64,000 bases of DNA, taken from Idiomarina sp. Its GTDB lineage: Bacteria > Pseudomonadota > Gammaproteobacteria > Enterobacterales > Alteromonadaceae. The stretch spans positions 186,001 through 250,000 of the forward strand of contig JAFIFP010000007.1 of NCBI GenBank assembly GCA_020831965.1, in the 5' to 3' direction. Positions 40,956-45,973 of this stretch are shown piece after piece (position 1 is the stretch's first letter; the number at the start of each line of letters is the position of its first letter). The position numbers and the translations under genes are program-made. The notes under the pieces are model-generated. The model was not told the origin of the DNA. It worked only from the letters and a program-made list of their open reading frames with translations, and searched no databases.

Positions 40956-41908
40956 ATTTCCCCTGGTTAAGACCACTGTGGCAGCAACTCGCTGTTGCGC
41001 GGTCTCAACAACAGCTGCCGCATGGGATTGGTCTTCCTTGGCGGCCTGATGCAGGCATTGAAGCCTTTCTTGACGCCTTCGTTGCTTGGCTACTGTGCCA
41101 AGAGCATCGTGGACAAGCCTGTGGACTGTGTAAAAGTTGCTTACTATATAAAGCCGGCACGCACCCAGATTACGTGTTAATTAAGCCTGAAGCCGGTAAG
41201 AAAATTGGTGTTGAAGCGATTCGTCAGCTGCATGACAAAGTGTGGCAGCGCTCGAGTCAGTCGGGTGAGACCGTGGTCGTGATTCAGCAAGCTGAACATA
41301 TGACAGAAGCTGCGGCGAACGCTTTGCTGAAAACGCTCGAAGAGCCACCGCCACAAAATTACCTGATTGTAATGCCTGAGCGTTTCTCTCGTTTACTTCC
41401 GACCGTACGCAGTCGCCTTACGACCTATCCTTTACCAGTTCCCAATGCGGATGATATGGCAGAGTGGCTTATGCGTCATGGTCAATTAGCGAAACGACCC
41501 GATGATAGCTTCATTAGCGAGGCACAGTTGAATCCGTTAAAGGTGCTGAAACGTTTACAGGGTGAGAGTGCCGAGCAGGTATCTGTTTTTAAAGCCGTTT
41601 ACGCAGGCGAACAAGTTATAGTTCCAGACTCGGCAGAAGCACAGGGTGAATGGCTGGACAATTTACTGCGCGAATTGCAGCGCGGGTTGGCAGAAGCGCA
41701 GGGTGATAGGGTGCGAGCGGATAGCATTTGGCCTGACACGTTGTCACAGCATCCTCATGTGGCGGGCCTATTGCCCCAATGGTACCAACAAGTGATGCAA
41801 ATAAAGCGTGAGCTCGGTGGCTCTGGGTTGAATGCAAAGTTACTTGTGCAGCGCTTTCTGAGCGCAGTACTCATAGACACTTATTATTCGAAAGGACAGA
41901 ATTCCTGA
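40940..41908 (+). CDS. holB: DNA polymerase III subunit delta'
   Basis: 322 residues of the AAA+ clamp-loader family. The zinc module (CQEHRGQACGLCKSC) is clear, then GVEAIRQLHDKV, the AANALLKTLEEPP motif and the sensor-1 VRSRL region. The P-loop is degenerate, as is normal for delta'. It is part of the complex that loads the sliding clamp. It starts inside the tmk end and ends one base into tatD. Confidence 0.93.
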   Translation: MAAGIDFPWLRPLWQQLAVARSQQQLPHGIGLPWRPDAGIEAFLDAFVAWLLCQEHRGQACGLCKSCLLYKAGTHPDYVLIKPEAGKKIGVEAIRQLHDKVWQRSSQSGETVVVIQQAEHMTEAAANALLKTLEEPPPQNYLIVMPERFSRLLPTVRSRLTTYPLPVPNADDMAEWLMRHGQLAKRPDDSFISEAQLNPLKVLKRLQGESAEQVSVFKAVYAGEQVIVPDSAEAQGEWLDNLLRELQRGLAEAQGDRVRADSIWPDTLSQHPHVAGLLPQWYQQVMQIKRELGGSGLNAKLLVQRFLSAVLIDTYYSKGQNS

Positions 41909-42690
41909 TGTTTGTGGATTCTCATTGTCACCTCGACAAAATTAAAGAGGTACAAACTAACGGTGTAGGGCCAACGCTGGCGCGCGCCGAGCAAGCGGGT
42001 GTTGAACACGTCCTTTGTGTTGCCGTGACCCTTGACGACTATCCAGTGATGCGACGAGCAATCGGTGAGCAGATTAATGTTAGCTTCTCATGCGGCCTGC
42101 ACCCGCTTTACATGAAGGATCAGCAGCTCGATGTCAGCAAGCTTACAGAATTGGTTCGCGATCCCCAGGTCGTTGCAGTTGGAGAAACGGGGCTAGATTA
42201 CTTCTATGATAAAGAGTTCCATGCGCAGCAACAGTCTAGTTTCGAACAACATATTCGTGTGGCTTGCGAAATAGAAAAACCTCTGATTATTCATACGCGC
42301 GATGCACACGCAGATACCATTCGAATGCTGCGGGAAGGGAGTGCAGAACATTGTGGCGGAGTATTGCACTGTTTTACTGAGTCGCTTCGTATGGCTGAAG
42401 AAGCGATGGAGATTGGTTTTTATATTTCGATCTCAGGTATCGTCACCTTTGCCAACGCAGATGAATTAAGAGAAACGGTGAAGAAAATTCCCCTTGAACG
42501 TCTGTTGATTGAAACAGACTCACCTTGGCTTGCGCCGGTTCCACATCGTGGTAAAGAGAACGAACCGGCGTTCGTTCATGAAGTGGCTCGCTGTGTAGCC
42601 GCACTGCATGGCGTTTCCGTCGAACAGGTTGCAGAAGTAACCACAAATAACTTCTATACCTTGTTTAACTCAGTGAAAAAGATAATTTAA
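41908..42690 (+). CDS. TatD-family deoxyribonuclease (YcfH type)
   Basis: 260 residues, metal-dependent TIM barrel. FVDSHCHLD binds the metal at the N-terminus, VGETGLDYFY is next, and HTRDAHADT, HCFTE and ETDSPWLAP follow. Members have 3'-5' exonuclease or D-aminoacyl-tRNA deacylase activity, and the physiological role is unsettled. It overlaps holB by one base. In Pseudomonas and several other genera a pilZ gene lies between holB and tatD; here it is absent, as in E. coli. Confidence 0.93.
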   Translation: MFVDSHCHLDKIKEVQTNGVGPTLARAEQAGVEHVLCVAVTLDDYPVMRRAIGEQINVSFSCGLHPLYMKDQQLDVSKLTELVRDPQVVAVGETGLDYFYDKEFHAQQQSSFEQHIRVACEIEKPLIIHTRDAHADTIRMLREGSAEHCGGVLHCFTESLRMAEEAMEIGFYISISGIVTFANADELRETVKKIPLERLLIETDSPWLAPVPHRGKENEPAFVHEVARCVAALHGVSVEQVAEVTTNNFYTLFNSVKKII

Positions 42691-42699
42691 CTTATTGAT

Positions 42700-42840
42700 A
42701 TAAAAAGAAAAGCTCGGAACCAAGGCAGGTGTTCCGAGCTCAGGGGAAAGGCTCATCATGAGCCGTGCGCTAACTCCTGCAATGCGATGAAAGCAGGCCT
42801 GAGGCCTAACATCGCGGGGAGAATGTTACTCAAAAGCGAT
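42700..42840 (-). ncRNA. Candidate intergenic small RNA ending in a strong terminator
   Basis: Read on the minus strand, this stretch folds well: an outer helix pairs gcgatg (42817-42812) with catcgc (42788-42783) around two adjacent aggcct hexamers; a second hairpin is ggctcat/atgagcc (42764-42750); the third is a 10-bp terminator stem. Two C-rich stretches, tccccg (about 42820) and tttcccc (about 42749), lie outside the helices and could pair with ribosome sites. No coding gene on this strand lies upstream, so the terminator implies an independent transcript. The promoter is unclear (a weak ttggta/tactat pair near 42875/42850). Size about 100-140 nt; no known family recognised. Confidence 0.45.
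42701..42740 (-). terminator. Rho-independent terminator of the candidate small RNA
   Basis: On the minus strand agctcggaac (42740-42731) pairs perfectly with gttccgagct (42720-42711) around a 10-nt loop, followed by TTTTCTTTTTA. On the plus strand no T-run follows the stem, so it does not suit tatD. The direction is therefore minus. Confidence 0.85.
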
Positions 42841-42929
42841 TACTAGAATAGTAGTCAAGAAAAAATAAAATTACCAAATTGTCTGCACATCTTTTCAGAA
42901 AAATAACCAATGCTCTGGTCCAAACCGCA

Positions 42930-42956
42930 TATAGTTTTTCTTGGGCGTTCCGATAA
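42930..42956 (+). promoter_or_regulatory. Sigma-28 (FliA) promoter upstream of the diguanylate cyclase gene
   Basis: TATAGTTT (42930-42937), an 11-bp spacer, and TCCGATAA (42949-42956). The enterobacterial FliA consensus is TAAAGTTT-N11-GCCGATAA, so each half matches 7 of 8 and the spacing is exact. The start would be about 50 bases before the ATG at 43018. This puts the downstream gene in the flagellar/motility regulon. Confidence 0.75.
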
Positions 42957-43017
42957 GATCACATCTAAGCTTACTTAAGTCGCACTTAAATTATTTCCTT
43001 GGGATAAGACGGTACCT

Positions 43018-44946
43018 ATGTACTTTTTTCCTCGTCGTTTAGTAACACGTTTGGCTCTCTCTCTTGGCATTGCCTTGATTCTTATGTTGGTGCTATTGGT
43101 CTCACTGTCACTGCGTGTGCAAGAGGACTCCATTCAAGAGCAAACACAAACCATGCTTATCCGTATGACCGAGTCCTATGCTTCAAGCCTTATGGTCATG
43201 TTGGATACGCGCCTGACGGCAGCACGAAGTCTTGCGGAACACTACGATGTTGAAGCCCATCAACCTTTGTACTTCTCGACAGCTCAAAATCTATTTCAAA
43301 GTGTGTGGGTTATCAGCGCCCAAGGCGATCTTGTTTCCAGTTGGCCTGCAGAGCAGGGACCAGAGCCTGGCACGGATGTTTCAGCCTATAGTTTTTTCTC
43401 TGAGGTGGATAAAAGTGCTTCTGTCTGGATAAGCGAGCCTCACGTGTATGAGGAGATAAGCAGTGAGCCTTTAATTCACTTAGTTGCTTCAATCTGGAAT
43501 GAGGAAGAGTTCAAAGGCTTTATCGTTGCCAACCTTGGGGTATTTTCGACACCGCTGTTCCAACGGATTGCTGGCGTGGCTTTTGGTAACTCAGGCTACT
43601 TCTAGTTGACAACTGAGTCGGGCGTAATTATTGCGCATCCTCAACGTTCCGAATTGCTTCAAATTCTTGACACCAATTTGCAGTCTGAGTTGCTGACTCA
43701 TTTCGGCACCGAGTCAGACGCTCAGGTTGTGCACAGTAACTTCTCTGGAGATGCTCTGCAAACTTATCAGCGAATTCCATCGACTGGATGGATTATTGGG
43801 GCTACTTTGCCACTCGATGAAGCCATGACCCCGATACAAACACTTTGGCGTGTACAGTTGATTGGTGGCGGCATTTTTACGCTTATTGCGCTATTAGCAT
43901 TGATTGGGATCATTCACTCGCAGCTCAGGCCCATCAGGCGACTACAACGTGAAGTCAGTTTAGTCAGACAGAATCATGCGCTTCGATTGAGTGAGCCCCG
44001 TTTAGCTGAGTTGTTGCAACTGGTGCGTAACTTTAACCAACTCATTGATGAGAATGAACATCAGCGACGCGCATTGAAACAGCGTCAAGCCTATTTTGAT
44101 ATGGTTCTTAATACTTCATCTGTTGGTCATTTTGTTGCTGATTCGCGTGGTTTTATTGAGTATGTAAACGGTGCCCTCGAAACTATAACCGGGTACAGCG
44201 AAGAACAGATTCGCCAAGGCCAGTTAGCAGATGGCTTAGAAGATTCCACGGGTAAGCAGGAGCGTGACCGCTGGGTTAATGCGCTTGAGGCACATCAAGA
44301 AATAGAGATTGAATTTAAGTTTCGTCGTGCAGATAAAACACTCGTTTGGCTGCATATTGCGAGTAAACCAGTGTTTGACCATGGCTTATGTTAGGGCCAT
44401 GTGGGTACCGTGACTGACGTTACAGAAAGCTATACCGAGATTGAAGACCTGAGGCATCGTGTACATCTTGACGAATTAACGAAGGTATTGAACCGGCGTG
44501 GAATTGAGGATGCTCTGCGCTCGGCTTGGAACGAAGCACAACTGTACAATCATCCGTTGATCATTATGGCGCTAGACCTCGACAACTTTAAGAATGTGAA
44601 TGACGAGGCGGGTCATGAACAAGGGGATTGGATTCTCCAGCAGGTAGCGGGAATACTTGAGGGAGCGGTGCGAGATACGGATATTGTTGGTCGCCTTGGC
44701 GGCGATGAATTTGTAATTGTATTGCCGGGCTGTCCCCTCGACCGCGCGGAATCGATTGCGGCAATGATCGTCGCTTCAGTGTCGGCTATTAGTGCGCAAC
44801 GGAACTTGCCGGCAGTTACGATGAGTATAGGAATAGCGGCAAAGTGTCCAGATGATCAATCCGAGCTCGATTTGCTCAGACGTGCTGACAAGGCGGCTTA
44901 CCAAGCAAAGCATGCGGGTCGTAATCAATGGGTTATGACTCAGTAA
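43018..44946 (+). pseudogene. Membrane diguanylate cyclase (dCache-PAS-GGDEF) interrupted by two in-frame TAG codons
   Basis: One frame of 643 codons runs the full length with only two stops inside it: TAG at codon 196 (43603-43605) and TAG at codon 459 (44392-44394). The product would have TM helix 1 (about 8-30), a periplasmic dCache-like domain, TM helix 2 (about 280-302), a HAMP-like linker, a PAS domain with PAC end, and a GGDEF domain. The active site GGDEF (561-565) and the inhibitory RDTD site (552-555) are intact. The first TAG sits in a conserved GYF-x-L position, where Tyr is expected; the second is in the PAC strand before GHVGTVTDVTE. No frameshift or deletion is seen. It is either a very recent pseudogene or read through. 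Its 3' end overlaps ansA by 14 bp. Confidence 0.85.
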
Positions 44947-45973
44947 TAGTGCGGTCTTGTTGCGGGGTAAGCTCGCCGCGTAGGTTCTGACTAAAAGCGC
45001 GAGCCAATGCCTCAGGCGCAAGCTCCTGACTTAACAAATAATGTAGCTTCGTAAGCGCGGCCTCCACCGTCATATCTTGACCACTAATCACACCCAAATC
45101 AGCAAGCGCATTTCCAGTTGCGTATCCGTGCATATTCACAGTGCCTTTGAAACACTGGGTACAGTTAACTACCGGTATACCAGCTGCAACCGCGCGGCCA
45201 ATAGCCTCAGGAAGTGCTCCAAAATGAGGCGCGTTGCCAACACCAAAACTTTGCAAAATCAGAGCTTTGACAGGTTGTTTAACCAGACTGTCTATGATCT
45301 GAGCACTCATTCCAGGGTATAAGGTGACGACTCCGATTTCTTGAGCTGAAACTTCTTGTAGTGTCAGCGCTTGCTTAGCCAGCGGTTTAACTTCACCCGC
45401 AATCAAGTCAATGTCGATCCCGGCCTCTAGTAATGGCGGAAAGTTAGGTGATGCAAATGCATCAAAGCCGTCGGCATCGGCTTTTGTTGTTCGATTACCT
45501 CGAAAGAGTCGATTATTAAAGAACAGTCCCACTTCGTGAATTGGATAGTGAGCTGCTAAATAAAGCGAATTCAATAAGTTAGTCTGACCGTCTGAGCGGA
45601 GCGCTGCCAGCGGGATTTGTGAACCCGTAACGATAACCGGTTTGCCAAGGTTTTCGAACATAAAGGATAGTGCTGACGCGGTGTAAGCCATGGTATCGGT
45701 GCCATGAAGAATCACAAAGCCATCGAAATCTTCATAGTGTTGCGCAATATCTAGCGCAATACGTTGCCAATCCCTTGGGCTCATATCTGAGGAGTCCATT
45801 AAGGGATCATATTCACAGAGCGTAAACTCGGGCATTTCAGGCCGATAGAACTCTGGCATGCCACGTAAGCAAGTTTCGAGAAATCCAGGAGCTGGCACGT
45901 AGCCTTGCTCAGACTTCATCATGCCGATGGTTCCGCCGGTGTAGGCGATGTAAATGCGTTTCCTACGACTCAT
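44933..45973 (-). CDS. ansA: Type I L-asparaginase
   Basis: 346 residues. The two catalytic Thr motifs are IAYTGGTIGMM near the N-terminus and LHGTDTMAYTASA. The lack of a signal peptide and the length near 338 of E. coli AnsA indicate the cytoplasmic low-affinity enzyme that converts Asn to Asp and ammonia. It begins one base inside the sppA stop (TAATG), so the two form an operon, the same pair as in E. coli. Confidence 0.95.
   Translation of the reverse strand: MSRRKRIYIAYTGGTIGMMKSEQGYVPAPGFLETCLRGMPEFYRPEMPEFTLCEYDPLMDSSDMSPRDWQRIALDIAQHYEDFDGFVILHGTDTMAYTASALSFMFENLGKPVIVTGSQIPLAALRSDGQTNLLNSLYLAAHYPIHEVGLFFNNRLFRGNRTTKADADGFDAFASPNFPPLLEAGIDIDLIAGEVKPLAKQALTLQEVSAQEIGVVTLYPGMSAQIIDSLVKQPVKALILQSFGVGNAPHFGALPEAIGRAVAAGIPVVNCTQCFKGTVNMHGYATGNALADLGVISGQDMTVEAALTKLHYLLSQELAPEALARAFSQNLRGELTPQQDRTITES

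Follow-up and report, generated by a model that had tools for sequence, protein, structure and literature searches.

Two in-frame amber codons in an Idiomarina diguanylate cyclase gene: a probable recent nonsense pseudogene

The interrupted cyclase frame and its neighbours

The window analysed here is a stretch of 64,000 nucleotides from Idiomarina sp. (G000:C14:186001-250000), taken from a genome assembly of 2,665,365 bases in 14 contigs that is 97.78% complete. On its forward strand, at 43018..44946, lies a broken diguanylate cyclase frame with dCache, HAMP, PAS and GGDEF parts, which was recognised by its domain matches and by ten intact orthologs. The frame starts with the ATG at 43018 and ends with the TAA at 44944-44946 (642 codons and the stop, 643 in all). 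Only two in-frame stops fall within it, the TAG at 43603-43605 (codon 196) and the TAG at 44392-44394 (codon 459), and with these in place no single open frame joins the sensor to the GGDEF domain. Codons 1-642 of the window are identical, letter for letter, to the copy in the genome assembly.

The stops divide the frame into three pieces, all on the forward strand. Piece 1 (43018..43605; 195 aa, ending in TAG) holds the first membrane segment, assigned by eye, and the N-terminal part of the dCache domain, which is a partial dCache_1 match of 27.7 bits (Pfam cut-off 45); it has no catalytic domain. Piece 2 (43606..44394), which would be 262 aa long if it started at the TTG at 43606, also ends in TAG and covers the remaining dCache part, HAMP and most of PAS. 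The Pfam search found the PAS domain in this piece together with a weak HAMP match (22.2 bits against a cut-off of 25). Piece 3 (44401..44946) would be 181 aa long if it started at the GTG at 44401, and it contains the whole GGDEF domain (PF00990, 154.5 bits, cut-off 23.8). Its translation carries the GGDEF motif and, five residues N-terminal of it, an RxxD motif (RDTD).

All three pieces aligned in one frame to the ten intact orthologs, which argues for one broken gene rather than a chance arrangement, and each of the two TAG codons (43603..43605 and 44392..44394) is a sense codon in 10/10 of these orthologs. In domain order and in its GGDEF and RxxD motifs the gene is like the dCache-HAMP-PAS-GGDEF membrane cyclases (PF02743, PF00672, PF13426, PF00990); unlike them, its frame is broken twice and its dCache and HAMP matches fall below the Pfam cut-offs. 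A preliminary description had reported a 643-codon frame with dCache, PAS and GGDEF parts, with the motifs present, TAG at codons 196 and 459 and no frameshift. Translation and the Pfam matches confirm this structure, and the one-frame alignment confirms that the frame is unshifted. A promoter and terminator scan gave no result.

The left neighbour is a TatD-family nuclease gene (tatD; 41908..42690, forward strand). The right neighbour is a type I asparaginase gene (ansA; 44933..45973, reverse strand), which is convergent with the cyclase and overlaps its end by 14 nt; synteny in kin bears out both neighbours. Between tatD and the cyclase, on the reverse strand, lies an SdsR/RyeB-type small RNA (42704..42801; Rfam RF00111, 46.5 bits, gathering score 38). 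Matches to this family next to tatD exceed the gathering score in 10 of 16 congeners, and two of the remaining six have one that falls just short of it. The SdsR-type match also occurs in some genomes without the cyclase (G004; weakly G014), and it therefore belongs to the tatD-ansA interval and not to the cyclase. A literature search for SdsR together with tatD found no paper.

The locus across the genus

With the middle piece as query, orthologs were sought in the window's genome and in 16 further genomes of the genus (17 in all). Comparison of the locus in relatives had been proposed in the preliminary description as a check: an intact ortholog was present in ten of the 16 congeners, a short copy in one and no cyclase in five. 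The ten orthologs are all open frames of 647-666 aa. All ten are flanked by ansA, and tatD lies on the other side in nine and farther off in the tenth (G006), so the window gene has intact counterparts at the same place in its kin, as a recent pseudogene should. The orthologs in G009, G011 and G012 end in TAG themselves. In G006, about 1.8 kb of extra DNA separates tatD from the cyclase, and SdsR and SraC/RyeA matches adjoin tatD.

In the five congeners without the cyclase (G002, G004, G014, G015 and G016), tatD adjoins ansA and the interval between the two genes contains no cyclase match. In G010 the ortholog between tatD and ansA is an open frame of only 399 aa in which most of the dCache region is missing, a naturally shortened version of this cyclase. 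One stop was flagged inside the ansA match in G007 and one in G016. A wider contig scan with six peptide patterns gave stretches that, among the best 80 of 582 confirmed, were 27-45% identical over their best segments.

On a tree of ansA and tatD, the presence of the cyclase requires at least three changes; this tree (591 columns, a quick method, G006 without tatD) is unrooted and cannot separate gain from loss. G016 belongs to the small clade that contains the window genome; the position of the latter within it is weakly supported (42 with the neighbouring genes and 40 when the cyclase tree was left free). The absence of the cyclase from five genomes, its shortening in one and the three or more changes in presence indicate that the gene is dispensable and that it has been gained or lost on more than one occasion within the genus.

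Age of the damage and other broken cyclases

Even the closest ortholog shares only about 45% protein identity with the window copy, and synonymous sites were judged too diverged for the dN/dS of the three segments that the preliminary description had proposed; we therefore used invariant alignment columns and branch lengths on a fixed topology to assess how long the gene may have been free of constraint. At columns invariant in nine intact orthologs (the short copy of G010 and the near-copy G011 being left out of the reference set), the window copy has changed in 3 of 88. When each of the intact kin was scored in the same way against eight references, the counts were 9 of 97 for G012 and 13 of 101 for G007, the two closest to the window copy, and 1-4 of 89-92 for the other eight, which have closer relatives within the reference set. 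When one dissenter was allowed, the counts were 12/121 for the window copy, 32/144 for G012, 34/142 for G007 and 4-12 of 124-132 for the rest. The window copy is therefore better kept than its two nearest kin, while relative to the remaining eight it is near the top of their range or a little beyond it.

The branch lengths gave a similar picture. The ratio of the cyclase branch to the neighbour-gene branch was 2.63 for the window copy, compared to 1.97-4.85 in the eight of ten kin with usable branches on the fixed tree (G010 was left out, and G009 and G011 had branches too short for a comparison). For the PAS-GGDEF half (codons 346-642) the ratio was 1.45, below the 1.59-3.48 of the eight usable kin. 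For the N-terminal half it was 4.03, within the 1.58-6.92 of these kin and beside values of 5.17 and 5.47 in the two nearest. Ratios within or below the range of the kin, together with the few changes at invariant columns, show no sign of long free drift: apart from its disabling lesions, the gene has no clear surplus of changes. Old decay of the cyclase was rejected, as its conserved sites are mostly kept and its branch is not lengthened.

In a simple Poisson count, 1.5-2.3 stops are expected at a neutral divergence of 0.02-0.03. The three changes at invariant columns cap the divergence between 0.03 and 0.05 (three or fewer would be seen with a probability of 0.16 at 0.03 and of 0.012 at 0.05). 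If indels are assumed to make up 10% of substitutions, the probability of seeing none is 0.15 at a divergence of 0.01 and 0.02 at a divergence of 0.02; under this assumption the lack of indels favours a divergence of 0.02 or less. The pair of stops and the small number of changes at invariant columns agree with a neutral divergence of at most a few percent.

In the preliminary description, two stops of the same type were treated as special, on the ground that lesions in ordinary pseudogenes are usually mixed. This premise proved weak. Among the single substitutions that would create a stop in the cyclase frame, 42-45% give TAG, depending on the transition bias. Two stops would both be TAG with a probability of 0.17-0.20 (about 0.18), and they would be of any one same type with a probability of 0.35-0.36. 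Since a matching pair is expected at about 0.36 and a TAG/TAG pair at about 0.18, the amber pair needs no special cause.

The window cyclase is one of 34 GGDEF matches in the genome. Another of these has an in-frame TAA, and two others are halves of one gene in different frames. The TAA-broken and the frameshifted genes lie close together at G000:C9:30000-34500, with the TAA inside the GGDEF domain at 1597-1599 of that segment. Relatives of the TAA-broken gene, 59-61% identical and with longer frames of 343 and 357 aa, were found in two of the 16 kin; one TAG was flagged inside the match to the 343-aa relative (G006). The frameshifted gene had matches in 11 of the 16 kin, the best two being 59-61% identical with frames of 306 and 294 aa; one TAA was flagged inside the match to the 294-aa relative (G002). 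There are thus two further broken cyclases in this genome, and we claim no excess of broken cyclases over chance. A genus-wide GGDEF search gave 26-46 matches per genome in 16 of the 17 genomes, figures that are match counts and give no base rate of broken cyclases.

Explanations for the double-stop gene

The reading that we favour, with a probability of a little over three in four, is that the window cyclase is a recent, ordinary nonsense pseudogene and that the full-length enzyme is probably no longer made. Very recent loss was the first of three explanations offered in the preliminary description, and it fits the mostly kept conserved sites, the unlengthened branch, the intact, short or absent copies in the kin and the two other broken cyclases in the genome. 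The ancestral gene would have encoded a membrane-bound diguanylate cyclase under dCache/PAS control, which recent base substitutions would have inactivated by creating the two in-frame TAG codons. Translation would now end at codon 196 and leave a fragment of 195 residues without a catalytic domain. The cell may have tolerated this loss because about 30 other GGDEF-domain genes are present. The second stop would then have arisen free of selection after the first, and either of the two may have been the first.

Three points stand against this reading. It takes some luck to acquire two stops and no indel. In the eight other kin, which have closer relatives in the set, fewer invariant columns are changed (1-4 of 89-92) than in the window copy. 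Finally, the absence of decay is equally expected of a gene that is still used.

Of the alternatives, the one that survives best is that the gene has been split. Ribosomes might restart at the TTG that directly follows codon 196 and at the GTG three codons past codon 459, and in this way produce a soluble, sensor-free GGDEF piece of 181 aa. We consider such restarts unlikely, although start-like codons do lie one and three codons past the stops and the whole GGDEF domain is contained in piece 3. A start-like codon occurs within three codons of 20.5% of the places in the frame, so that two such sites are expected by chance at about 4%, and the pattern was noticed afterwards. Shine-Dalgarno matches are of three bases at best; the GTG at 44401 has a three-base match 5 nt upstream. 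The PAS-GGDEF half does have a ratio (1.45) below those of the eight usable kin (1.59-3.48), but the N-terminal half is also not faster than in the two nearest kin (4.03 against 5.17 and 5.47), and conservation therefore extends beyond the piece that restart would produce.

A further point in favour of restart comes from Shigella flexneri. There, nonsense mutations precede GGDEF in dgcE, dgcQ and dgcN, and these genes are reported to raise c-di-GMP nonetheless (PMC11327459). Like the window gene, these three and dgcM are interrupted by a stop codon ahead of a GGDEF domain that is itself intact, and their genome, too, has other cyclases; a table in the study places a Met three codons past the stop in dgcM (stop 177, Met 180) and in dgcQ (stop 56, Met 59) (PMC11327459). 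Protein and c-di-GMP were measured in Shigella (PMC11327459), whereas the window gene has two stops in one gene and is known from its sequence alone. The activity of the nonsense-broken Shigella cyclases makes a split or leaky window gene conceivable, if unlikely.

That the gene is split rather than dead, with restart at GTG 44401 yielding a working sensor-free GGDEF enzyme, appears slightly less likely still than the restarts themselves. If it were, the stops would be a route from a membrane-tethered to a soluble cyclase, and the gene would be an example from outside Shigella of degenerate cyclases that still work. Restart of the GGDEF piece is a live alternative and one worth an experiment.

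Another possibility is a sequencing or assembly error, such that one or both TAG codons are absent from the organism. An error would leave the gene intact in kin and free of decay, as observed. However, two separate substitution errors in one gene, both creating stops, seem unlikely in an assembly of 14 contigs and 97.78% completeness, and no stop lies within any of the 18 EAL or 38 ABC-transporter matches of the same genome (34 of the latter over the cut-off). We regard this explanation as improbable.

It could also be speculated that TAG is read as an amino acid and that the full-length cyclase is made. Both stops are TAG and the remaining frame is conserved, and the window gene shares an in-frame TAG in an otherwise conserved frame with known amber recoding systems (pyrrolysine and CUA suppressors). 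In the Shigella study, full-length-size bands are described for dgcQ and dgcN, and the authors name readthrough as one possibility for these two cyclases (PMC11327459).

In contrast to amber recoding systems, none of the expected machinery was found in the window genome. A suppressor tRNA with a CUA anticodon, which the preliminary description had proposed looking for, has no support, as this anticodon occurs at none of 47 tRNA places in the 97.78% complete assembly (located with the Rfam model, with anticodons from ARAGORN; 46 are distinct when flanks are included). Pyrrolysine was rejected because the two PylS matches scored 25.8 and 21.8 bits, far below the cut-off of 178.15; in a control search PylS was over the cut-off in 1 of 14 control genomes. 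Global recoding of TAG was rejected because RF1 (prfA) is present and open (559.7 bits) and TAG is in use as a terminal stop. It ends nine of the 47 other window ORFs of at least 150 aa, which bears out the earlier view that TAG is a normal stop here. (Fifty such ORFs were chosen and 11 end in TAG; three of the 50 are cyclase pieces, two of them TAG-ended.) In the ten orthologs, the column of the first stop holds Ser, Ala or Val and that of the second Leu, Ile or Val. These are unlike residue classes, and a single suppressor would therefore not give the usual residue at both columns. A tRNA in an assembly gap may exist, or ordinary tRNAs may read through. Taken together with the intact RF1 and the missing CUA anticodon, the residue classes leave the earlier suggestion of amber readthrough or suppression without support, and we judge it very improbable.

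The last option, phase-like on/off switching of the cyclase, was rejected and is hardly credible: there are settings in which losing c-di-GMP genes can be advantageous, but region 42690-45000 has neither tandem repeats nor direct repeats of at least 14 nt, and no slippery repeat or invertible flank at either lesion (the frame contains two 6-T runs, neither at a stop, and there is one 73% inverted pair), the reading frame is kept throughout, and we know of no mechanism that lets two point stops switch at a high rate. The preliminary description's phase-like option thus found no support.

Recent nonsense inactivation is therefore our preferred reading of the window cyclase. A striking double amber in an otherwise clean frame may simply be what recent gene loss looks like: two stops will match in roughly one case out of three, and a fresh breakage has not yet gathered other damage. 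Within this one genus the cyclase locus is intact, shortened, broken or absent, a pattern of turnover in a large c-di-GMP repertoire.
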